A model generated the notes under the pieces. The model was not told where the DNA came from. It did no database searches and saw only the letters and a list, made by a program, of their open reading frames with translations. This document shows, piece after piece, positions 4,111 through 62,907 of a DNA stretch of 64,000 nucleotides; the first letter of the stretch is position 1; each line of letters starts with the position of its first letter. The position numbers were made by a program, and so were the translations under genes. Source of the DNA: Acanthosoma haemorrhoidale (lineage: Eukaryota > Arthropoda > Insecta > Hemiptera > Acanthosomatidae); contig OV884009.1 of assembly GCA_930367205.1 (NCBI GenBank), forward strand, positions 92,029,189 through 92,093,188. Direction: 5' to 3'.

Positions 4111-4233
4111 TGCCATTATAAGCCTATAACATTTAAATGATGTTAAAAAAGAAAAAAATATTATTGTTCTTTTTTTTTATTTTCATAAAGAAAGTTCTAT
4201 TTTAATTAAACATACATTCAATTTTAATACCTT

Positions 4234-5065
4234 TGTTGTGGCCACCTCTCAATCACGAATAATTAGAAGTTCCCCTCTTCTCGTATCATAAAATATCTAT
4301 CTATGTTTCCATATATTTAATAAAACTTATGACGTTAGGTGGAGAAGGGAGAGAAGCTAGTGGGGGAAACAGCCGCAGGTGGGGAGCCAACCCAACCACG
4401 GCTGGCCTGCCTATATAAACTCCGCGTCTATGAGCGAAAATTAGAACTTACCAAACCGGCACCTTGAACACTTCTCTCTTTCTCTTTCTCTGTACTGGCG
4501 CTTGCTGCTCTACTCAAAACCATGGACTTCTCATTCAACTACTTCTCCATCTTTCTCTCCTAATCTCGCTATGTTTTAGTCCGGCGTTGCCAGGCCCCAC
4601 ACCTTCCTAGTGAGAATCCCTGCCTTCGTCTCGCTAAAACTAGCACTTCCTTGAGAGAGACCTCTCCCTCGTGGACGACGATTGTCGTGGTCCTACAAAC
4701 ATACCTAGCAGCATCTCCCACGGCAATCCAGTCTGCTTCTCTCCGGTTCACACTCGCCTTTGGGATCCGGATGGTTTTCGCCTACCCTTAGACACCGAGT
4801 GTGAATTCGTGGTCATTCCAAGACCACATAAACTACCTATAAACCTACCCTGTTCCTCTGCTCCTTAACATAGTGCATTGTCGGGGCACACCTTCTAAGA
4901 TCTTATGGAGTCAGATCAAAACGAATTAGACTGCCCGCAGACTAGGCCGGCAGCTAGGGTGTAAGACCACAGGTCCACCCTTTCTTGGCGCTCGCCGGAC
5001 GGGGGCTAGAGGTTGTAGCGATCCTAGCCCGCGACGGGCGTCTCCTCCCCACTGTGGGGATATTC
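4234..5065 (+). repeat. Dispersed repeat family A, copy 1 (promoter-bearing, LTR-like)
   Basis: A GC-richer block of about 830 bp, repeated at 43,968-45,680 (minus, split) and in part at 17,711-18,052 (minus). It starts GTTGTGGCCACCTC, has a TATA box (TATATAA, 4412-4418), a pyrimidine-rich leader, an ATG at about 4521, and ends near CCCCACTGTGGGGATA (an inverted repeat). A short reading, roughly DPDGFRLPLDTECEFVVIP, recurs in all three copies. I infer a solo LTR or the 5' region of an unrecognised retroelement. Matching TG...CA ends and a TSD were looked for but not established. Confidence 0.6.
4412..4418 (+). promoter_or_regulatory. Putative TATA box of family A copy 1
   Basis: TATATAA sits inside a conserved block. 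The same motif is conserved on the minus strand of the other long copy (45,494-45,500). Conservation between copies suggests an RNA polymerase II promoter carried by the repeat. Confidence 0.45.
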
Positions 5066-6536
5066 GACGACAATTTTTGACCCGACAATTTTTTTAAACT
5101 AGAATTATTTATTTTATGTATGTAAACCCTGCTGTTCTCGAGAAATGTCTTGGTGTTTTTTTGTCATGGAATTAAAAAGATTAAACACTATTATATATTA
5201 GATATAGCAACGATCTGTTAAGCCATAGCAGTCACATCCATACAATATATACATTTTTATATGTATTGGGGGCACCTGTGTGATGCGTTACTTTTTCGAG
5301 CAGGTCAATAAGAAGAGTGGCTAAATTATAAAGGGTCAGCTCGAGGAAGCTACCTTCAGGAACTCCTAATGAATGGAAAAATAGTTGGAATATTCTAAGC
5401 CACAATGGACTTGAAAGAAGATAATAGGATTGAAGTATTATGTAAGGATGTTTGCTTGTAAAGCAAACTGGCGCACCAATTTCAGTCGAAAGCCTGAGCT
5501 AGGTCGCGAAAAGTGTACATATAATCAAAAACGCTGAGACTTGAGACTACGACCAATAGAATGTATCCAACGGAAGCAAAATTTTTAGGTGAGTTGGATT
5601 TTTTTCGATTGTAATATAGAAACCTTTGAGTAGGGTTCTTTAAAAAAATTTTAAGGGATCATTACCTTACTAAAACAAAATACAATAATTGAATAGTTAC
5701 ACTAAAGTGAATGGATGGTAGAGAATATTCAAGCAAGTATTTAGGTCATGAAGGTTATTGCTTCGGGTGGTAGTTACCTATGGTTCTGAGCAGTAAGAAG
5801 ATTATAACCAGAGAATTTACTAAGAGGAAGGTTTCCTAAAATATAGCTTACGTAGCAAATTATTAGTCGGTAAATAATATATAAATAATACTCGGATATA
5901 CTTGTAGTACTTTAGTTTCTAATTTTAGAGATAAAAGACCCGTTATCAGGTGAAATACTAACAGGTTTGAGTAGAATGATGGGAGTGTTCTAATCCCTGA
6001 GCCACATTGAGTAGATAGCGGCTGCTACAGACGGATCCTGCCACTTAACGAGATGAATAGGGCAGCATCACTGCTTAGTCTCTGCGCTCCAAGAGCCCAC
6101 TTTTATACAGCTCAAACTAATAACTGCTAAAAACTGTCTTTTCAAGGAGGGGGGGGGGGAGAAATGCGTGGAGTTTGAGTTAATCTTCAAATTTCACGGG
6201 AAAGTAACGATGTGATTTAATTGATGGTCAAATGGAATCCATCACCATTGTTTTTTAATTTTTGATAACCAGCTTTGTTTTACATTGGATACAAACTAAA
6301 CTCAATTTTTTGTTTTTAATACAGTGGTACAAAGGAAATAAAGGTCGTGATAAGTGAAAAAAACATTATAAAGAAGTCCTTTGACGATACCCACAGTACT
6401 AGGCTTGTTAAAAAAATCTTGTTAATGGAATACGTTTTTGATTATCTCACATCACATCTCAACACACAGATTGCATGCAGACTGGAGCCATCGGGAGAAG
6501 AAACGTTCCAATAATCTGCCCGTATTTTATGTTTCC
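5066..6536. other. Unassigned AT-rich sequence
   Basis: No gene or repeat recognised. An 11-base G run lies at 6149-6159. Confidence 0.45.
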
Positions 6537-6671
6537 TTATACCTTTATCTGTCGCCTCTTCCTTCATTTCAAAGACCACCCTTATACCTTTATCTGTCGC
6601 CTCCTCCTTCATTTCAAAGACTACCCTTATACCTTTATCTGTCACCTCCTCCTTCATTTCAAAGACCACCC
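6537..6671. repeat. Minisatellite, 45-bp unit x 3
   Basis: Three head-to-tail units at 6537-6581, 6582-6626 and 6627-6671, starting TTATACCTTTATCTGTC and ending in a variable pyrimidine block. Only a few positions differ between units. The unit is a multiple of three, so both strands stay open. The minus strand reads a 15-residue repeat (RVVFEMKEEATDKGI) and the plus strand reads YTFICRLLLHFKDHP. Nothing shows that either is translated. Confidence 0.9.
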
Positions 6672-8545
6672 TAATCACATAAAGCAAGCATGCGAATTAG
6701 GTTAGCAAGATACTTGGCTCTGTGGAGACCACCAGAGCAAGCTGAAAGCTATCAGACGATGACCCAAATGCACCAGTTAACGGTAAGATATGCCGTTCTT
6801 GACTGCACCGAGTATCAAGGCACCAGAAGTATGATTCTCAATCAAGACAATTTTAGTACCGTTCAAAAATGGCATACTATTCATAAAATACTCTAAAATG
6901 TTTAATGATCATAATTTTAGTCTGTAAATTTTAAAACTTCTATAATTTTGTAAAGCTATGATTTCTTGGAAATTTTAATTGGTTCATCTGAGGCAACGTA
7001 ATTTTTAATTGTTTGCAATTTGTTAACTTAGTACTATTGACTCAGAATTGGGGTCTTTAGCATCGTTAGTTGTACACGACCTCTAAAATAAACAAATCCC
7101 TTGAGCCCAAAATTCAACTCATTCTGGCACTTCGTCTGAAGAGACTATAACAGGTTTTCGCAAAAAAAATTAGCTATTTACAGGATATTTGAGGAAGAAG
7201 AGTAGGGATTTCTTTATGAATATTTCTAAAAAAAATTGGATGGCCGCTAGGCACAGACTTGAACCCAGATCGACTCTAGATGTGATCTTATCCGTACCGC
7301 TTACCTTTGAAACTATTCCCATCGATAATCGTCGTTCATCGACTTTCCCAATCTTTACTAGTTCCTTATCTCCGTCCAATAGGACTACTTATAATTTGTA
7401 ATTATTATTCTTTATATTTATTTTTCTAATTTTTTTTCACTTCCTATATTAATACATCTCAACAAACTTTCACTTTATTTCCCCTTTTTTATGATTCCTA
7501 TATTTTCTTATGCCAGTGATTTTCAATCACCTCTACTCGTGTTTTCTGTTTCAATATTTTTCTGGTGGCTGAATCGAGTCACCACATATGTAAAAAGGTC
7601 ATTAATTATAATCATATCAATCATCATATGTTTTTGTTATTCTTTAGTGGCAATTTCCTAGAATGAAGTGGGTTTTTTTATTCATTCATACCTTTAATTC
7701 GTTTTATTTATATTTTTAAAAAATACAATTTTATTAATATTTAAAAAAAATTCAAAATACCATCGCTCTTTAACTGAAAAATACAGGAATACCAGTGCAC
7801 ATATTTGCATAAAGCTGTTATGTGGGTTTCTCTCAGATGGTGCGCAAAACTTGATCATGACCAACCCCTGTGGAGAATTGACTTGACCCTCTGACTTGGG
7901 AATCAGTGGAAAGTAATGAAGGGGGAGCCGAAGGGATTACCATGAGAATGAGGTGGAATCAATGAGCCGGTTAGAAGTGGGACCATTACCATCTTCCTCA
8001 TCATTGTTCTGATTAATCAATGATGCCATAATCCCTCAAGCTGACTAATGCATGCCTGTCTTACATCCCTCCCCTTTCAGACAGACCTCTTTCAAATACA
8101 ATCCTAATTATATATATACCTTTGTTTTTATAAAATTGAAATATGACAAATGTCTTATGACTGAGCGAACTAAGCCATGACAGCAATGTGAAAACATAAA
8201 GTAACACATTATCAGAAATATCTATGAAATTTGATTTTAGTGCACTGGCTGATCAATCAAGCTTGCTTTTAAGACACGGGTTCTTTGAAGGTGGACCTGA
8301 CGTTAATTATTGGAGATGCTTTAGCCTTATATGTAAGACCTAAAATCTCGAAAGCTTAGCATTTTTTTTTTGGCCGTTTACCATTTTTTTTTTAAACCCC
8401 TGAATCGGTTACCTTTCCTGTATTAGCCGGAAAGACCTCTGTTCCTCAAGATCCGATTAAATGGTAAGTCAGTTGTAGATTTGGAGGGAGATTTTTATGG
8501 TTTCCAAATCTATTTTTTTATCTTACAAGATAAAATACATAGTTT
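6672..8545. other. Unassigned sequence
   Basis: No recognisable gene. A possible tRNA-like promoter region (A-box and B-box-like words) lies on the minus strand around 7240-7320 and is described under findings. A moderately GC-richer part at 7820-8060 shows no readable protein family. Confidence 0.4.
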
Positions 8546-8717
8546 CATCTATAAATAGTGTATGTACATATTTATAGTATATTGTTACACCTATAAACCG
8601 TACATATACATATGTATGATATATAGTTACCTCTATAAATAGTGTATGTACCCATGCGTCGTATATAGTTACAACTAAATATAAACCGTGTATGTACATA
8701 TTTATAGTAAATATTTA
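8546..8717. repeat. Minisatellite, about 42-bp unit x 4
   Basis: Units at 8546-8587, 8588-8629, 8630-8671 and a longer diverged one at 8672-8717. Each contains CTATAAA followed by GTGTATGTACATAT-like sequence and ends in GTTA or similar. AT-rich, non-coding. Confidence 0.8.
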
Positions 8718-10141
8718 AATCCATGAAAAAATTTGATTACAGCGGAAACGATTAATTTGCGAACTGTTAGAAACTTTATACATAGCTGAAGTGAATTATT
8801 GGTTTTTCTAAATCAAATTTACATTATAATAATATATTTAATATAAATATAAATTATATATTATTTTATGATATGGTAGCATGATTAAGAGAAATAAACA
8901 TCACAGTTTTAGACGAATAAAGAGCTCGTGCTCCAGTCTGAGCTCATAAAATTGATATTTTAAAAATTGATTTGCAATTAGCAACAGCAACCACATCACA
9001 CTCCGTTGGTAGGCAGATGCTCAATTTGCAACAGAAAAAAGCCAAGTCTTTGTCAAAGTGCAAAGTGTGTTTTGATCATCGAGGGGAAATAGTGATGGCT
9101 GAAAAAAATGATTATTTGTTTTTTTATTTATAGCCTTTGATATGTAACTCTTACAAATATATTAAAACTTATTGTTACCACAAAAAAACCGTTCTTTTGA
9201 TTTATGGGGTACCACAGTACCCCTCGGAACAATTCTAGCGTTAAGCTAGTGTATGCCCACCGAATATCATCAACCCAATCATGTCCACTTCTCTCGCTTT
9301 CTAGTCCTAAAAAAGATCTCCAAACTACTAACATACAAACATTTGTAAACAAATATTTTCTAGCAAAGGTACTAGTATTATTCATTAAAATAAAAAATAT
9401 CATACTTTTTTAAAAGCTCAATAAATTATAATAATTTTTTTCCTTATATTTCAGTGTTTGAATTTGAAATGATCGAACTCTACTAGGTTATGATAAAATG
9501 ACTTTCTTATGTAATTAAAGAATGTGTTATTTTCGTTCCGCCCAAAAAATTTCAGGGGTGTTAGTCCTAAACCAGAAATAAAAAATATATAATATTAATA
9601 TACATATTTCTTTTTTGGAATTAGATCATTTCAGCGATTTCGGCAATGAAGTTAAATAAACGGAAATCCCTGCTGATGGTAAAATAAACTGTTAAATTGA
9701 GTCCATTGTTTTTCAGTGTACCGGAACTTGTATTGACAGAAATGGTGTGAGCATGAGGGAATGAGTTGAGTTATTATTGTCACAGCAATTTGACGATGGA
9801 CATATCCGAGTGTAGATACCGGATGACAGAGATCCAGATCGGGCAGGCTATCAGCCCTTCACTTTTCACTCTCACTTCCATTTGGGATTCATCCATGAAG
9901 GGGGGGGGGGGGCTAATTACTTTTATTTTGTTATACGACAGCCTTATCTTGCACGCTGTTATAAATTCGCACGAAAAAAAAAAATTGTTAGATTGTTTTA
10001 TATCGTTCATTTCAATTTTTTATATTCGGTCGTTCAATATAATCAGTTAATTTTATCAATATGTTATAATCTCTCTCTCTCTCTCTCTCATTGGGAGTAT
10101 GTTACGAGTTCACCCACCTCTCTTTCTGCCCGATGATAGAA
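8718..10141. other. Unassigned AT-rich sequence with simple repeats
   Basis: A 13-base G run at 9900-9912 and a (CT)n microsatellite at 10071-10089. Short open frames at 9128-9403 (minus) and 9766-10136 (plus) are not recognisable and cross these simple repeats. Confidence 0.45.
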
Positions 10142-10714: not shown

Positions 10715-11961
10715 CCAATGACGCCTCATCTTACCGTCCAATTAGCCTACTCCCTGTCCTCTCAAAAATGTTTGAGAAACTCCTATTAAAACGTCTACTT
10801 CCAATTGTTGAATCCCAAATCCTTTTTCCCACACACCAGTTTGGTTTCCACCAACGACATTCCACTGCTCAACAAGGCCTTCGCGTTGTTGATCACATCT
10901 CCTCAGCCCTTGAAACCAAACAGTATTGCACTGCTGCCTTTCTTGATATAGCTCAAGCTTTTGACAGGGTTTGGTACGCAGGTTTGCTCTACAAGCTCAA
11001 AAGATATTTACCACACACCCTTTTCCTAATTCTACAGTCCTACCTTTCAAACCACTTCTTCCAAGTCCGCTGGGGTTTAGAATATTCTAACTACTATCCC
11101 GTCAATGCAGGAGTTCCACAGTGTCATGGGTCCCGTCCTCTATAACCTATACACCGCTGATGTCCCCTCTACTCCCAATACCTTCTTGGCCACATTTGCA
11201 GATAACACTGCAGTCTCGTCATCCCACCCAGACACCGATATAGCATCCCATAACCTTCAAAAACACCTTGACGAGATCGAGTTTTGGTGCAACCAATGGT
11301 GGATCAAAGTCAATGAAGCAAAATTTCCCACATTACCTTCACCCTTTGTCGCAAGACTTGTCCACTAGTTTATTTTAATTCTATTCCTCTCCCTGTATCT
11401 GAGACAGTACGGTACTTAGGCTTCCATCTCGACAAATGACTAACCTGGAACCCACATACGAGACTAAAAAGACAAGAACTAAACAGACGCTTTGGACATG
11501 TACAGTTGTACACTTCAAAGAACATCCCATCTCTCTTATGCTTATGCTAACTTGTCACCAAACAATTTTATACTAGAACTATTAGTAATGATTTAGTTGT
11601 ATAGTATTTTAATGCGTGACAGTGGGAGTCCTGGCAATGGCCAGTTTCCCCAATCATGTCCTGAGCGTCTGTGGCTCTCGCACTCTAGGTCAGCCTCCAC
11701 TGGCTCATATCCAGTGATGCGGCTGACGGAGGAGCGTGCGGGACTTCCCAAGACTCCACTTTCTCTTCCGTATGCAAGGGAGGTGACCAACATGTGGATT
11801 TGGGAGGCCTCTGGGCTGTCTGTAAATGTATGAATGAGCGAGTGAATGATGAATTGTAAATATGGTATGAATGAGAGCATTTATCTTAATTACTTATTGC
11901 CTAATAAGACAGATTGTAATTTTAGCACAATAAAGGCTAATAAAAAAAAAAAAAAAAAATC
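10715..11961 (+). mobile_element. 5'-truncated Jockey-type LINE with 14-bp TSD
   Basis: A non-LTR retrotransposon copy flanked by AGAATTATTATAAC (10701-10714) and AGAATTATTGTAAC (11962-11975), one mismatch. It begins inside the reverse transcriptase, lacks the C-terminal part of ORF2 through an internal deletion near 11,510-11,600, and continues into the 3' UTR and a poly-A tail (11941-11959). The body is closely similar to the full-length copy at 39,468-43,653. The duplication and A-tail show insertion by target-primed reverse transcription. Confidence 0.93.
10722..11368 (+). pseudogene. LINE reverse transcriptase fragment (broken ORF2)
   Basis: Partial reverse transcriptase of a Jockey-clade LINE. 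Reading from the truncation point it shows SYRPISLLPVLSKMFEKLL (RT block 2), HQFGFHQRHSTAQQ, AFLDIAQAFDRVW (block A with its catalytic Asp), and NAGVPQ (start of block B). A short deletion near 11,122 breaks the frame. The other frame continues with LYTADVPSTPNTFLATFADN, where the catalytic pair is Asp-Asn instead of Asp-Asp. It then reads NLQKHLDEIEFWCNQWW. The frame is lost again before KTCP-like residues. The frameshifts and the catalytic change make it inactive. It was probably dead on arrival. Confidence 0.92.
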
Positions 11962-39852: not shown

Positions 39853-41181
39853 ATGAGATTTTATCAGCAGCTAATATCACAAAATAAAATAAAAAGATCT
39901 AGGTCCTTAGGTCCAACTCCGACAACGTCGCCTGTAAAGCGAAAACCTAGACGCTCAAATAGGAACAACCCTATAAACTCATCTGCTGCCAGCTCTATGG
40001 AAGATCGACCACCAGTTGCCGGCACTTCAAAAGAAGAAACTGTAGCAGAATCTCCATTCTTCACACCGAATAGCTTCGAGGTACTGAGAAACGGCCAACC
40101 TGACGACATGGAAGTTATTCAAACACCAACACAGCCCAAGCCGCCTGCTATATTAGTAAGGAATATTAGCAATTTTAAACTATTATGCTCACAAATGAGC
40201 AAAGTTGTAGGTACCGGAAAATATACGTGCCTCAATCGCTCTCGGGATACAAAAATTTCCCCAGACACTCCCGATACTTATCGAGCGATCATCAAGTATT
40301 TGGAAGAGACCAATGCAGACTTCCATACATATCAGTTGAAACAAGATCGATCACTTCGAGTAGTGATAAGAAATCTGCACCCGACCACACCAGCTGATGA
40401 AATTGAAGACGAACTATCAGCTCTGGGATTCAAAGTTCGGCAAATAACCAACGTTTTACGTGAGGACAGAAAACAAAACGAATCCACCAAAACGGCATTA
40501 CCGTTATTCTTTGTAGATCTCAAGCGGACAACTAGCGTGAAGAAAATATACGACTTAACACACCTGTATTACGCAAGAATACAGGTCGAAAAACCTTACC
40601 CTAAACGAGACATCGTCCAATGCCATAATTGCCAGGCATGTGGGCACACAAAATCATACTGCCACCAACCTCCCAGGTGTGTAAAGTGTAGTGGGCAGCA
40701 CAAAAGCAAATTGTGCAAAAATCCCCTGAAATCGTCAGCTGTATGCGTGCTCTGTCAGCAAGACCATCCGGCATAACTACAAGGGCTGCGATGCTTATAC
40801 TATTCTGAAGTCCAGGAGCGAGCAACGTCGTCGGCAAGAAGAAGATAATCCAGTCACAGGTAGCTCAAGAAGCGCCCCCACCAGAACTTTTAGGCCTTCA
40901 GTCTCTTTTGCTAATGCCGTTCGGAACAGAGAACAGTCACAGGCACTGCCCACTTCTCGTCCGGAAGTATCTCTTCCCCAGCATACCGCTCATCCCGGCA
41001 ACCAGCAAACCCAATCCCATCCTCAACCACACATCTCGCATATTCCTTCACCTCCAAGCTCTTCAGATCTCACTAGCCTATTAACATCATTCCTTACAGA
41101 ATTCAGAACCCCAATTACCCCTCTCATTTCCCTTCTTACAAATCTTGTCTCCTACCTTATCCCCGTTAAACAAAATCCATA
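39853..41181 (+). pseudogene. LINE ORF1, Gag-like zinc-knuckle protein (one frameshift)
   Basis: Nucleic-acid-binding ORF1 protein of a Jockey-type LINE, thought to coat the element RNA in the cytoplasm. The first 307 codons (39,853-40,776) are open. Residues 1-60 are basic and Ser/Pro-rich. Residues about 100-200 resemble the PRE_C2HC domain (SLRVVIRNLHPTT and DELSALGF). Three zinc knuckles follow: C257-x2-C-x4-H-x4-C270, C276-x2-C-x3-H-x4-C288, and a third starting C298-x2-C-x3-H. A 1-base insertion at about 40,773 truncates the third knuckle. The remaining frame stays open after it for about 130 codons, a Pro/Ser/Thr-rich tail ending at 41,181. Chosen start: the first ATG after the 5' UTR, followed by a long open frame. 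The stop is immediately followed by the ORF2 start region. The tail is also present in the older copy at 35,387. Confidence 0.92.
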
Positions 41182-41182
41182 A

Positions 41183-43351
41183 GTGGATCCTTCTGGCTCC
41201 TTATCCATTCTCCTTTGGAATGCGAATGGTGTTCGCACCTACACTAACGAACTGACAGCACTACTCCACGACAAGAAGATCGACGTAGCTCTTATTACTG
41301 AAACAAGACTTACGAGCAAACGACCATTTACCGTTCGACAGTACCAGACTTATCGAACTGATCACCCAGATGGAACACTGCCTCCTCCTTCATTTATTAG
41401 GGGCCCAGTTAACTGGGACCACTTCCGCCAGCTTTTTACAGAGTCCGTAAACCTTAAATTGTCCTTGAAAACATCCCAAGACCTAGACGATGCAGTGCAT
41501 TCTTTCACTCCTCTGGTCCAGAGGTCGGCTTGGGAGGCATCGTCACCCCATCGTCACCCAAAAATCCACAATCATAATCGTTTACCTCAGCATCTCAAAG
41601 ATCTAATCCAATCTAAATGCCGCTCCAGAACAGTATGGCAATGATCCCGGCATCCTGTTGATCGCCGCACGTACAATCAGTACTGCCGATTGGTAAAGCG
41701 GCGATTGGCATCCTTCCGTTCTGATTCTTTCAATTCCTACCTTTCCTCTCTGTCTACCAGGGATAACTCCTTGTGGAATGTAACCAAAAAAATCCTAAAG
41801 TATCAACCTGTTTCACATCCACTCCGTCGTGATGATGGGTCCTGGGCGGACTCGGATGGGGATAGGTCGGAGGAATTTGCTCTGCATCTTACCCATACTT
41901 TCACACCTCACCTTTCTCATCAAAGCCATACTCACAGCACAACTGTGGAAGATTTCCTCACTTCACCTATTCCTCTCTCTCTTCCACCAAAAGCCGTTAA
42001 TCCCTCTGAGGTCAAATACCTTCTGAAAAACTTACCTTACAGAAAATCCCCTGAATATGATCTCCTAACTCCTCAAATTCTCAAACAACTTCCTCCTAAA
42101 GCCATAATCTTCTTAACCTACATATATAATTGCATTATCCGAACGACGCACTTTCCTCTCCTCTGGAAACATTCCATTATTGTTCTATTCGCCAAACCCG
42201 TAAACCACCCAATGACGCCTCATCTTATCGTCCAATTATCCTACTCCCTACTCCTACTAAAACGTCTACTTCCCATTGTTGAATCCAAAAACCTTTTTCC
42301 CACACACCAGTTTGGTTTCCACCAACGACATTCCAGTGCTCAACAAGGCCTTCGCGTTGTTGATCACATCTCCTCAGCCCTTGAAACCAAACAGTATTGC
42401 ACTGCTACCTTTCTTGACATAGCTCAAGCTTTTGACAGGGTTTGGCACGCAGGTTTGCTCTACAAGCTCAAAAGATATTTACCTCAGACCCTTTTCCTAG
42501 TCTTACAGTCTTACCTTGCAAACCGCTTCTTCCAATTCCCCTGTCGTTTAGAATACTCTAACTACTATCCCATAAATGCAGGAGTTCCACAGGGCAGTGT
42601 CCTGGGCCCCATCCTCTATAACCTATACACCGCTGATGTCCCCTCTACTCCCAATACCTTCTTGGCCACATTTGCAGATGACGCTGCAGTTTTGTCATCC
42701 CACCCAGACCCCGACATCCCATAACCTTCAAAAACACCTTGACGAGATCGAGTATTGGTGTAATCAATGGTGGATCAAAGTTAATGAAGCAAATGTTCCC
42801 ACATTACCTTCACCCTTTGTCGCAAGACTTGTCCACTAGTTTATTTTAATTCTATTCCTCTCCCTGTATTCGAGACAGTACGATACTCAGGCTTCCATCT
42901 CGACAAACGACTGACCTGGAACCCACATACGAGACTAAAAAGACAAGAACTAAACAGGCGCTTTGGACAACTTTACAGACTACTTCAAAGGACATCCCAT
43001 CTCTCAATAGAAAATAAACTACTAATCTACAAAGTTACACTTAAACCAATCTGGACATACGGAATAGAGCTATGGGGGACAGCAAAAAAGTCGAACAACA
43101 AGCGTATCCAATCCTTTCAATCAAAAGTCCTGAGAACAATACTAAATGCCCCTTATTATGTCAGCAACAAAACCCTTCATAACGACCTTAATATACCCTA
43201 CATTCTAGAACTCATCCCTTCTAAGTTTATGAAATTCCACAGTAGCCTTTCCAACCACCCTAATCCCGTAGCACAGTCATTGCACTGCGCCACTCATCCC
43301 TATAATCCTCCTCGGAGACTGAAACGGCAGTGGCCTTGTGACCTGCTATAA
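41183..43351 (+). pseudogene. LINE ORF2, endonuclease remnant plus reverse transcriptase
   Basis: Replication protein of the LINE. It opens directly after the ORF1 stop as GTG GAT CC, with no ATG there. Endonuclease N-terminus: SILLWNANGVRT and ALITETRL (APE-like, with the metal-binding Glu). An in-frame deletion at about 41,372 then removes the rest of the endonuclease domain and joins HPDG to PPPSFIRGPVNWDHF. TGG CAA TGA at 41,636-41,644 is a nonsense mutation where the older copy has AGA. RT: LLTPQILKQLPP, a short out-of-frame stretch (about 42,190-42,260), HQFGFHQRHSS, FLDIAQAFDRVWHAG (block A), NAGVPQGSVLGPILYNLYTA (block B) and FATFADD-like TFADDAAV (block C, Asp-Asp intact). A 5-base deletion at about 42,717 and a further frameshift near 42,790 follow. 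The C-terminal domain reads LTWNPHTRLKRQELNRRFG and LKPIWTYGIELWGTA and ends with RRLKRQWPCDLL at 43,351. Not functional as it stands. Confidence 0.92.
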
Positions 43352-43666: not shown

Positions 43667-43967
43667 CTGTTTATCGAGGCAAACTAATAAAATCAAAATG
43701 TTTACCGTTGAAGGGAGCTCAACGTGGATATCGCTCACCTATTAAAAACCATTATACTTATTATATGAATAATTTAAATTACGGTGGTAATATTAGTAAA
43801 TATACTAATTGCTAATATGTTTAAAGAAAATTAAAAGTTAGTAATATATGAAATATACCTGTAATAATTATTACCAAACTTATTCGTCCACTCTCTTAAT
43901 ACTTCAGTAACCACACCATTTTGAGGCTCAGTTCTTCAGATAAAACCTTGTCGGGCTCAGATAGCTG
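43667..43967. other. Unassigned AT-rich spacer
   Basis: Nothing recognised between the right TSD of the LINE and family A copy 2. Confidence 0.4.
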
Positions 43968-44603
43968 AGTATCCCCAGAGTGGGGAGGAGACGCCCGCCG
44001 CGGGCTAGGGTCGCTATAACCTCTTAGCCGCCGTCCAGCGCCCAGAGAGAGATAGAGCGGGTGGACCTATGGTCTTTCACCCTGGCTGCCGACCTAGTCG
44101 GTGGGCAGCTTTAATTCGCTTTGATCTGATTCCATAAGATCTTTAGAAGGTGTGTGCCCCGACAAAGCACTATGTTCAGGAGAAGAGGTACAGGGTAGGT
44201 TTATAGGTAGTTTATGTGGTCTTGGAATGACCACGAATTCACACTCGGTATCCAAGAGTAGGCGAAAACCGTCCGGATCCTAAAGGCGAGTGTGAACCGG
44301 AGAGAAGCAGACTGGATTGCCGTGGGAGACGCTACGAGGAAAGTTTGTAGGGCCACGACAACCGTCGTCCGCGAGGGAGAAGTCTCTCCCAAGGAGGTGC
44401 TAGTTTTATTGAGACGAAGGCAGATATTCCCATTAGGAAGGTGTGGGGTCTGACATCTCCGGACTAAAACATAGCGGGGTTAGGAGAGAGAGATGCAGAG
44501 GTAGTTGAATGAGAAGACCATGGTTTTGAGTAGAGAAGCAAGCGCCAGTGCAGAGAGAGAGAGAAGTGTTCAAGGTGCCGGTTTGTTACTTTCTGATTTT
44601 CAC

Positions 44604-54225: not shown

Positions 54226-54230
54226 CGTCG
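54226..54230. repeat. Target-site duplication, left (CGTCG)
   Basis: Identical to 56,425-56,429 and directly abutting the inverted repeat. Confidence 0.88.
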
Positions 54231-54268
54231 CACACTGGTTCCTAACGACGAAAAACGGGACAAAAGTC
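54231..54268 (+). repeat. Left terminal inverted repeat
   Basis: 38 bp, identical to the reverse complement of 56,387-56,424. It can be read as heptamer CACACTG, 22-bp spacer and nonamer ACAAAAGTC. Confidence 0.93.
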
Positions 54269-54570
54269 TGCAAAACAGTAAAGTTCGCCTGCAAAATTTT
54301 TTTGCACATTTTTAATGAAGGTGTAGATTGCCCTTGATGGAAAACTGGTGATAAATTTTCCAAAAATAGCGCAAAAATAGTCCGAAAATAGACACAAAAA
54401 TCAAGTGTGACCCATGAATTTCAAAGTTTTTTTTTACGCGACTTATTCAACAACCAAGAAAATATTAGGTAAGTTTTCCACATAGTCATTATTGTTTTTA
54501 GTGTGAAAAAATGTATTTGTAAATAAATACATGTAGGTACACAGCACATAAGCATAGGTAGCTCCTCACA

Positions 54571-55080
54571 ATAAAACTATTACCCCGATTAATGGCTATA
54601 TTTAAAAAAAAAAACATGATGAGTGAAGTAGTAAAGTTGGTAAACATCAGTTTTTAATTCCGTCTTCGTACATAAATCCAGAGAGTTCGTGATTATTATA
54701 ATGTTACTTAGATGAAAGTTTGTAAGGAGATTTTCAGCCTCTTCCTCAAGTTCAATAATTGGAGATTTTTGCCAATTTGGTCTCAATCTTGCAAGGAGTG
54801 GAGAACTATTACCCCAATTAGTGGCTATTAAAAAAAAAGTACTTATGGGCAGAAAAATAGTATATGAAAAAAGTTATTGAAAAATAATGTATATAAAATG
54901 ATACCCACACGCGGTAAAGTTAGTAAACATCAATGTCAGTTTTCAATTTTGTCTTCGTCCAGAAATCCAGAGTCTTCGTGACTATGTGTTGGATGAAAGT
55001 TTGTAAGGAGATTTTCAGCCTCTTCCTCAAGTTCAATTGGAGGTTTTTGCCAATTTCGTCTCAATCTTGAAAGGAGTGGA
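54571..55080 (-). repeat. Internal tandem duplication in the Transib-like element
   Basis: Unit 54,571-54,800 and unit 54,801-55,080 share ACTATTACCCC-ATTA-TGGCTAT, then GTCTTCGT and AAATCCAGAG, GGATGAAAGTTTGTAAGGAG, ATTTTCAGCCTCTTCCTCAA and TCTCAATCTTG. The left unit carries a second, unlinked copy of the last codons of the transposase frame (minus frame 54,589-54,786). Confidence 0.85.
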
Positions 55081-55538
55081 TCAGAAGAAATAATTAAATT
55101 ACGTATGATGTCTTCGCTTGTTGATGGCCTCGATATTTTGCGGGAATGGTTCAACGTAAATCGTTTAAAATCCTTGTTTTTACTTTCTTGAGCTTCCTCT
55201 GATATCCAACCAATCGGTAAAACAGTAGAATCCAGAATCGCTTTTCCGTGGATCAAAATTTTATGAAGAGAGGATGGCATGTAGTACCATTCATACAAAG
55301 AAACATATAGCTCTGCAGTTTCGTGGCAGTATTTTTCAAACTTGGAGGAGTCCACAGAAGCACCAGAAGAAATCACTTGAAGAATCACATAAAATTTTTG
55401 GATCAAGTTTTCGTTAATTTCGAAGATCTCAGCAACAGTTTTCCAATCTCTGAAAAAACGTCGCGCGCTGTTTCCATCGTTGGTTGTACCAGATCCTTGT
55501 TTCGGCACATCCACTAAAATACCAATTTTCTCTTTCAA
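54936..55538 (-). pseudogene. Transib/RAG1-like transposase, C-terminal region
   Basis: A 200-codon open frame, the C-terminal part of a DDE-type transposase that would excise and insert the element. Visible motifs: GTTNDGNSARRFF (residues 17-29), aligning in pattern with the RAG1 segment M-N-G-N-x-A-R-K-x-x. LYVSLYEWYYMP (77-88) follows. LHKILIHG has H92 and H97 spaced five apart, like the RAG1 zinc-binding pair H937/H942. ISEEAQESKNKDFKRF (112-127) has E118, 21 residues after H97, where RAG1 has E962 20 residues after H942. An acidic tail follows from residue 170. Upstream codons stay in frame (RAHEQCRKLDEKRR) but are cut by a TAG about 6 codons before the first ATG. The domain with the first two catalytic Asp residues is missing. 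Family identity is supported independently by the element ends. I also recall similar repeated proteins in other arthropods. Confidence 0.82.
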
Positions 55539-56386
55539 GCTGTGCTAGATATGTTCTTTTGTAGTTTTCATTCTACGCTTTTCGTCAAGCTTCCTACATT
55601 GCTCATGAGCTCTGAAATTTTTTTGAAAGATGTGTGAGCCCGTTTTTTGTCAAACTATACTTCATTGCATATTGATGTTCAGAAATTGAATATAACTCAC
55701 TCAATTCCTTACCTTCGCGTTTGTTCGAACTCCAAATACGGCACTTTTATGGCAGAAACCATGATTATTATCTTTAGGATGGTGGTAACAACTGAGTCAG
55801 AAGATCAACAAGGAATGGACCACATTGGTATATTTCTTTCAATTTTAATAGCGAGTCAAATACTCAGAATGTAAATAAACAGACGCGTTTGTCTCCACTA
55901 ACAAGGATCTAAAATCAAGGGTCGCACTCGGTCGCAGCTAATTTGTGTTCTAATCGCTTCTCCATACTTGTATGAACACGAATCAACTTGATTTTCAGAA
56001 GCGGGTGGAAGCGGAAGATTCATAAGCTTCTAAAAACGTAAATAATGTATAAAAACTAAAATTTTTCTTATATTAAACGATCTAAACGCACGTTATTGTT
56101 ACATTTTCCCGAGTGTGAATAACGTGCTAGCTTCATTTTTTGCCCTGTAAAAGAAAGCCACTAAAAGACAATTTTAAAATAAGCTTGAAATATCTTTTAC
56201 CCGTCATTACAAAACTTGGCTTTTCCTCGCGATTTTCTCGTTTATTCTTAACCCCTTACTCTTTCTTCAAGTAGATGAGCTTACAATATAACGACCAGAG
56301 CTTAGAAACCATCGGTTCTGAATACCTTAGGTACCTCTCTAACAGAATTATAATGCCATTTTATGGCCACGAAGGTGTCAAAAATG
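55539..56386. other. Interior of Transib-like element without recognised coding
   Basis: Between the transposase frame and the right inverted repeat. It would have to hold the N-terminal transposase region on the minus strand, but no DDE motifs were seen. A reading with QVDSCSYKYGEAIRTQ-like residues near 55,950 is unassigned. Confidence 0.5.
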
Positions 56387-56424
56387 GACTTTTGTCCCGT
56401 TTTTCGTCGTTAGGAACCAGTGTG
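56387..56424 (-). repeat. Right terminal inverted repeat
   Basis: Perfect inverted copy of the left end; outermost bases CAGTGTG on the plus strand abut CGTCG. Confidence 0.93.
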
Positions 56425-56429
56425 CGTCG
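56425..56429. repeat. Target-site duplication, right (CGTCG)
   Basis: Matches 54,226-54,230. Confidence 0.88.
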
Positions 56430-62040: not shown

Positions 62041-62907
62041 TTTTTTTTATATAAGTTCTTTATTGTGCTAAAATTACAATCTGTCTTGTTAGGCAATAAG
62101 TAATTGAGATAAATGTTCTCATTCATACCATATTTACAATTCATCATTCACTCGCTCATTCAAACAATATTTACAAACACCCCAGAGGCCTCCCAAATCC
62201 ACATGGTTGTCACTTCCCTCGCATGGGAAAGAGGAAGCGGAGTCTTGGGAAGTCCCCCACGCTCCTCCGTCAGCCGCGTCAATGGATACGAGCCAGTGGA
62301 GGCTGATGAAGAGCGCGAGAGCCACATACGCTCAGGACATGATTAGAGAAAGTGGCCATTGCCAGGACTCCCTCTGTCACGCATTTATAACAGGTCACGA
62401 GGTCAGTGCCGTTTCAGTCTCCGAGGAGTTTATAGGGATGAGTGGTGCAGTGCAAAGACTGTGCTACAGGATTAGGGTGGTTGGAAAGGCTACTGTGGAA
62501 TTTCATAAACTTGGAAGGGATGAGTTCTAGAATGTAGGGTATATTAAGGTCGTTATGAAGGGTTTTGTTGCTGACCTAATAAGGGGCATTTACTATTGTT
62601 CTCAGGACTTTAGATTGAAAGGATTGGATACGCTTGATGTTCGAATTTTTTGCTGTCCCCCATAGCTCTATTTTGTATGTCCAGATTAGCTTAAGTATAA
62701 CTTTGTAGATTAGTAATTTATTTTCTATTTAGAGACGGGATGTCCTTTGAAGTAGTCTGTACAGTTGTCCAAAGCGTCTGTTTGGTTCTTGTCTTATTAG
62801 CCTCGTATGTGGGTTCCAGGTCAGTCGTTTGTCGAGATGGAAGCCTAAACGCTCTAAAAAACGACTGACATGCGTTTGTCAAGATGGAAGCCTAAGTACC
62901 GTACTGT
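62041..62907 (-). mobile_element. 5'-truncated LINE (ORF2 C-terminus plus complete 3' UTR)
   Basis: Minus-strand copy starting within the ORF2 sequence for VRYLGFHLDKR (about 62,905). It runs through the LTWNPHTR-, KPIWTY- and HNDLNIP-like segments to the ORF2 stop near 62,388, then the full 3' UTR to AGAACTTATATA at 62,050. A 23-bp local duplication (62,826-62,848 and 62,873-62,895) disrupts the start. TCTAAAT occurs on both sides (62,032-62,038 and 62,908-62,914), a weak target-duplication candidate. The T run at 62,038-62,049 fits a poly-A tail on the minus strand. Confidence 0.85.

Follow-up and report, generated by a model that had tools for sequence, protein, structure and literature searches.

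The closest described counterpart of the locus analysed here is Hztransib, a transposon of 3,518 bp with the target site duplication (TSD) GCTCG (available portion of PMC1852546), whose transposase has the catalytic residues D126, D225 and E436 according to the available portion of PMC6941560. The latter text also describes that Transib ends carry heptamer- and nonamer-like boxes with various spacers. More generally, the accessible parts of PMC4411706 and PMC7204232 describe animal Transibs as elements with ends starting with CAC, 5-bp duplications and a small number of intact copies in each genome; for autonomous Transibs the usual number is one or a few copies, which are often damaged (PMC4411706, same part). 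Non-autonomous Transibs are described from Helicoverpa, in the accessible part of PMC9033116, as MITEs of 75-564 bp that have a 5-bp duplication and no room for a transposase gene. Our literature search on non-autonomous insect Transibs with a 5-bp duplication yielded no paper, and printed work on them may exist.

Here, we analysed a stretch of 64,000 nucleotides of Acanthosoma haemorrhoidale DNA (the window) and conclude that positions 54231-56424 very probably constitute an internally deleted Transib, a transposon related to the recombinase that cleaves antibody genes. It has a CGTCG duplication and was likely cut and pasted by an enzyme encoded in an intact relative, for which the 3,084-bp copy on contig C2 is an example. 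We prefer this explanation because of the ends of the element and its duplication, its match to a Transib-type transposase, the existence of a family of copies with shared lesions, the empty sites of other copies and the presence of an intact-looking relative. The window element represents a new family within the known Transib superfamily, and its non-autonomous lineage is of an ordinary type.

The element is 2,194 bp long and its transposase sense is the minus strand. The first-pass annotation had placed it at 54226 to 56429, which is the right locus but includes the two duplications; its description of perfect 38-bp inverted ends starting with CAC, next to CGTCG direct repeats, holds in full. 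The left end (54231-54268, plus strand), which is the 3' end in the transposase sense, and the right end (56387-56424, minus strand) are exact reverse complements over 38 of 38 bp and open with CACACTG, and the identical CGTCG 5-mers lie at 54226-54230 on the left and 56425-56429 on the right. A repeat search lists the inverted pair as 43 nt with 98% identity because the 5-mers are included, their middle base being the sole mismatch. Within the element, an imperfect tandem duplication with units ~280 bp apart (54575-55080) covers the 3' end of the transposase frame; it is also present in the 38 fetched relatives that were searched and in the C2 copy, and one of its units is gone in L057 and L058. 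The remnant of the matching transposase that the first-pass annotation had recognised is a C-terminal fragment of 200 aa on the minus strand (54936-55538), which opens with TTG and retains the region of the catalytic Glu (SEEAQESKNK), without either catalytic Asp. Two deletion junctions, both assigned to the minus strand, were mapped: that of a subfamily deletion common to 16 copies including the window's (55587-55590), and that of an older 296-bp deletion of N-terminal coding sequence present in the non-autonomous copies (55728-55731).

Among PDB chains, the 200-aa frame aligns with residues 302-463 of 6pqn_A, from an entry titled DNA-mediated transposase, with an E-value of 5.6e-53, and it matches RAG1-like and RAG1 chains only at E 0.099 or worse. 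The membership of the Transib superfamily proposed in the first-pass annotation is therefore borne out, and a protein closer to another transposase superfamily, which would have spoken against it, did not materialise, 6pqn_A being the best match. We take 6pqn to be Hztransib of Helicoverpa zea; this fits, since the aligned acidic residues at chain positions 109, 208 and 419 are each 17 below D126, D225 and E436. When two frames were joined as a query, 6pqn_A was matched at E 2.1e-102, and the best database relatives of this query, P0003 and P0004, are 49-50% identical to it. The Pfam RAG1 family is matched by the 200-aa frame at E 0.037 and by the protein of the C2 copy (P0123) at E 0.0011, both below the curated cut-off, which the related protein P0003 does pass; Pfam by itself would have left the superfamily undecided. 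A search of the window against Rfam gave 0 matches.

The assembly that contains the window consists of 72 contigs totalling 865.6 Mb. When all of it was searched for the first 36 bp of the end, allowing 3 mismatches at most, 263 occurrences were found, versus 0 for the reversed control, and at least 23 elements of 740 to 3,748 bp could be paired among the 100 exact ends listed of the 263. A genome search with the whole element found at least 129 matching pieces (39 of 183 candidates scored). From the assembly 38 loci were fetched with their flanks; 29 have both ends and, together with the window copy, form the set of 30 copies used below, and the nine without one recognisable end did not enter the TSD count. 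In 27 of these 30 copies the 5-mers on the two sides are identical, the flanking 5-mers of the remaining three being non-identical (one mismatch each in L026 and L058, and an end shifted by two bases in L039). Over the 27 duplications, C, G, C and G were counted 23, 24, 21 and 20 times at positions 1, 2, 4 and 5, respectively, and position 3 is mixed, which gives a target of roughly CGNCG with 82% G+C in total, versus a flank average of 40%. The 263 ends against none in the control and the 27 identical 5-mers argue that the inverted ends and repeats are not due to chance. The search for other copies, which the first-pass annotation had put forward as a check, thus revealed many with matching ends and 5-bp duplications.

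To detect empty sites, the two flanks of each copy were joined, and the joined sequence was compared with those of the window and of the fetched loci. Empty paralogous sites that span the junction were found for 10 of the 30 copies, and seven of these ten lie in the window itself; the comparison for L039 is blurred by its shifted end. A search for the empty site of the window copy itself found none: most of its non-self matches cover short parts of the right flank, and those few that extend to the junction have 72-74% identity and include no empty paralogue. Four repeats in the window (4200-5090, 43950-44600, 11430-11940 and 62060-62830) are empty versions of landing sites, related repeats elsewhere having received insertions of several family members. 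Repeats are favoured landing sites. Four pairs of copies that share a repeat are inserted at the same base on at least one side (L025/L050, L026/L034, L043/L044 and L050/L054), and four further pairs align within ~40 bases of the junction. L043 and L044, which both have the deletion of the window copy, are at the same base of one of these landing-site repeats in opposite orientations and are therefore separate insertions, as are L025/L050 and L050/L054, since the members of each pair belong to different deletion classes. L026 and L034 belong to the same class and have flanks that are 82% identical, and could have arisen by duplication. The window also contains, on the plus strand at 39853-42724, the remains of a retrotransposon, probably of the non-LTR type, with a PRE_C2HC-type frame upstream of one for a reverse transcriptase, as well as two short tandem arrays with periods of 45 (6535-6672) and 42 (8539-8721).

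A structural alignment of the 30 copies separates 11 copies of ~2.9-3.7 kb, 16 with a gap of exactly 864 bp (the window copy, L042-L052 and L055-L058), two with a different gap (L053 and L054) and L021, whose 926-bp gap contains the 864-bp one. The subfamily deletion measures 864 bp relative to the longer copies and 913 bp relative to the intact-looking C2 copy. In the tree, the 16 copies and L021 form one clade with support 100/99, and the mean divergence between copies is 1.8% in the 864-bp class and 3.8% in the longer class. The window copy differs by 0.91% from the majority of its class, and the earlier description of it as fairly recent holds in these relative terms and no further. Since one and the same gap is found at many places with differing flanks and 5-mers, the deleted form itself must have moved; the presence of this deletion in 16 copies including the window's supports the first-pass view of a non-autonomous copy moved in trans.

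Older lesions are shared even more widely. All 30 aligned copies are gapped over positions 697-992 of the C2 element (296 bp of N-terminal coding sequence), and the gap of L053 and L054 starts at the same base as this one and runs on to 1944, and may have arisen in one step or in two. A Trp codon conserved in P0003 and P0004 is TAG in 21 of the 22 copies that keep the codon, L026 having GAG. About 40 bp of the CxxC stretch is lost in 17 of the 19 copies that span it, and is kept in L028 and L035 (the CxxC of L028, like the gap placement in L053 and L054, was checked by pairwise comparison). Finally, the best matches to P0003 are interrupted by one or more stops in each of the 20 longer copies examined. 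The TAG, the loss of CxxC and these stops suggest that the lineage that was amplified most likely goes back to a founder unable to make transposase. The common 296-bp gap and TAG likewise imply that the lineage was already transposase-dead, and that it was probably moved in trans. L061 and L062 are full-length but decayed relatives that do not have the 296-bp deletion and keep both the Trp and the CxxC, and hence the deletion, the TAG and the loss of CxxC mark the dead lineage. The GAG of L026 and the CxxC kept in L028 and L035 mean that the order of the lesions is not fully tree-like; the mosaic lesions in these three copies could be due to gene conversion or to separate lineages. Five short elements, picked from the exact end pairs, were also fetched: L063 (740 bp), L064 (1,010 bp) and L065-L067 (1,431-1,436 bp), the last three having one structure and 96.5-97.1% identity. 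Four of the five are flanked by identical 5-mers, and L066 has one mismatch.

A genome search with P0004 gave at least 93 matches (76 of 1017 candidates scored), the best of which, on contig C2, is open over the matched length; at least one intact-looking copy of the window's family is therefore present among the P0004 matches listed. The C2 element (L059) is 3,084 bp long, has CGGCG on both flanks, and each of its ends is 2 mismatches away from that of the window copy. Its frame is open for 678 codons from the first ATG, and the protein, P0123, matches 6pqn_A at 4.8e-129 and is homologous to it over residues 174-642; D270, D386 and E596 align with the catalytic residues, and the zinc motif reads CVLC. 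The C2 gene thus looks intact and may encode an active transposase. The C2 element is 91.4-95.8% identical to the 30 copies, and for this reason it may be a cousin and not the driver itself. P0123 is without two residues near residue 181 that its relatives have, and the element is without ~345 bp of 3' non-coding sequence kept by the long copies and L062. The intact relative elsewhere in the genome that had been postulated from the window is represented by this intact-looking copy with matching ends, which we regard as a candidate for the driver. Another Transib family is also present in the genome: L060 (G000:C4:31649000-31653100, minus strand) is a 3,059-bp element with an open frame of 688 aa (stop to stop), CGGCG on both sides and ends starting CACAGACGGG. 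The P0004 matches listed include at least four stop-free frames of this type (685-688 aa, with ~40% identity to P0004) as well as a fifth that contains one TAA; of these frames, L060 alone was fetched.

The history that would best account for the window element starts with an ancestral copy in which 296 bp of the N-terminal coding sequence were deleted and the TAG arose, but the ends were kept, and which would still have been mobilised by an intact transposase. One descendant would have lost a further 0.9 kb and then spread to at least 16 places, including the window. An intact Transib transposase would bind the ends of a defective copy, excise it and reinsert it with a 5-bp stagger at CGNCG-like sites, presumably by the chemistry known from the literature on Hztransib, in which hairpins form on excision and insertion is likewise staggered by 5 bp. 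Internal deletions, which likely result from faulty repair of the gap left after excision, would generate new classes that could spread in turn. The window copy might instead have moved with its own transposase and suffered its deletion in place afterwards, as any resident copy can, and it does still have a fragment of the gene. However, the 864-bp gap is common to copies at 16 different places, which fall in one clade with L021, and the 296-bp gap and the TAG are common to still more copies; the shared breakpoints and the single clade contradict this scenario, to which we assign hardly any probability. It is also highly improbable that the copies owe their number to segmental duplication, or to spread within other repeats, instead of to transposition. 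Many flanks do lie in shared repeats, and the four same-base pairs and the four pairs within ~40 bases of the junction could be read in this way, but the opposite orientations of L043/L044 and the different classes within L025/L050 and L050/L054 leave L026/L034 as the only same-base pair that fits a duplication. Segmental duplication as the main route was rejected, since the other flanks are mostly unrelated or out of register, the TSDs differ between copies and 10 of the 30 sites have empty paralogues.

Two further readings concern what the element encodes. RAG-like elements, too, have CAC-starting ends and 5-bp duplications (available portion of PMC7204232), and the element could accordingly be thought to carry RAG1-RAG2 or to belong to a different cut-and-paste superfamily. 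The probability of this is close to nil, because the Transib-type transposase outscores the RAG1 chains by ~50 orders of magnitude. Moreover, the longest frames of the C2 element besides the 678-codon gene have 120 and 113 aa and are both antisense to the gene. RAG2-like proteins are larger than frames of 120 aa, and by this comparison of sizes the C2 element would not contain a RAG2-like gene; nor was a convergent RAG1L-RAG2L pair found when the frames on both strands of this element (L059) were listed, the others being at most 120 aa. The KP fragment of the P element is a truncated protein that acts as a repressor. In a KP-like manner, the C-terminal fragment could have been kept because it represses the intact transposase, or regulates it by binding the ends, and the same fragment is indeed retained in the 2.2-kb class and is open in several copies. 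We consider this very unlikely. Over the C-terminal frame of 17 copies of the class, the distinct changes relative to the subfamily majority are 55 replacements, 16 silent changes and 5 stops, versus 53.2, 18.1 and 4.6 expected without selection under the same mutation spectrum; this neutral pattern gives no sign of selection and speaks against a conserved repressor. In addition, the frame of the window copy has a TAG within it, and the shorter class L065-L067 has lost nearly all of the frame. In the internally deleted, trans-mobilised Transib that we favour, the remaining C-terminal frame most likely travels as a passenger.

The ends of the element were also compared with recombination signals, using the consensus of the RSS heptamer and nonamer to score boxes. 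Behind the CAC heptamer position, the ends of the window copy (54231-54268) have two nonamer-like boxes with 7/9 matches, one at a spacer of 10 bp and one at 22 bp. When the inner end was shuffled 20,000 times, a box with 7/9 matches was present at spacer 22 in 0.8%, at spacers 10-13 in 3.0% and at both in 0.01%, values that apply to a two-box pattern chosen post hoc, after inspection of the sequence. One end of the C2 copy begins with CACAGTG, which we take to be the textbook RSS heptamer. The second Transib family (L060) has a box at spacer 23, with 7/9 matches at one end and 6/9 at the other, and no box of at least 6/9 near spacer 10 of its ends. We give the two-box reading little weight because of the post hoc choice, the second family without a spacer-10 box and the precedent of Transib boxes with various spacers in the available portion of PMC6941560. 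It is thus very improbable that each end is an undecided signal that one transposase could read as either 12-type or 23-type; if true, the ends would be a living model of the state preceding the split of the 12/23 rule.

Compared with Hztransib, the family shares a homologous transposase (residues 174-642 of P0123), the three acidic residues, the CxxC and the 5-bp duplication, a likeness that concerns protein, size and TSD. It differs in that the window copy, which retains only the region of the catalytic E, is without most of the gene, and P0123, in which the catalytic D, D, E and the CxxC are all found, has ~165 more N-terminal residues than the crystallised chain. With the animal Transib superfamily it shares the 5-bp TSD, the inverted ends starting with CAC, the homologous transposase and the low number of intact copies, but it is a separate family with nearest relatives, P0003 and P0004, at 49-50%; at least one intact-looking copy versus 263 ends fits the remark on scarce autonomous copies in the available portion of PMC4411706. 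Like the Helicoverpa MITEs, the family includes copies that have a 5-bp duplication and are too short for a transposase gene, but the classes of the window family range from 0.74 to ~3.1 kb (paired ends up to 3,748 bp) and most contain pieces of the gene. The likeness to RAG1/RAG2 and the RAG-like ProtoRAG is limited to distant homology near the catalytic Glu, the CAC start and the 5-bp duplication; the similarity is far lower and the family is without a frame of RAG2 length, those of L059 other than the transposase gene being at most 120 aa. One 864-bp deletion in 16 copies with differing flanks is found, as in a non-autonomous element, and the features of a RAG1L-RAG2L element or of a KP-type repressor are not.

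In summary, this genome is a natural two-part system that combines an intact-looking transposase gene with many copies that have near-identical ends, several deletion classes and empty sites. The case is ordinary yet unusually clear, and the notion of what a Transib is remains unchanged. If the C2 gene works, it would provide another Transib enzyme with its native substrates, which could be compared with Hztransib and RAG, and it would offer a route to asking how defective copies come to outnumber their driver.
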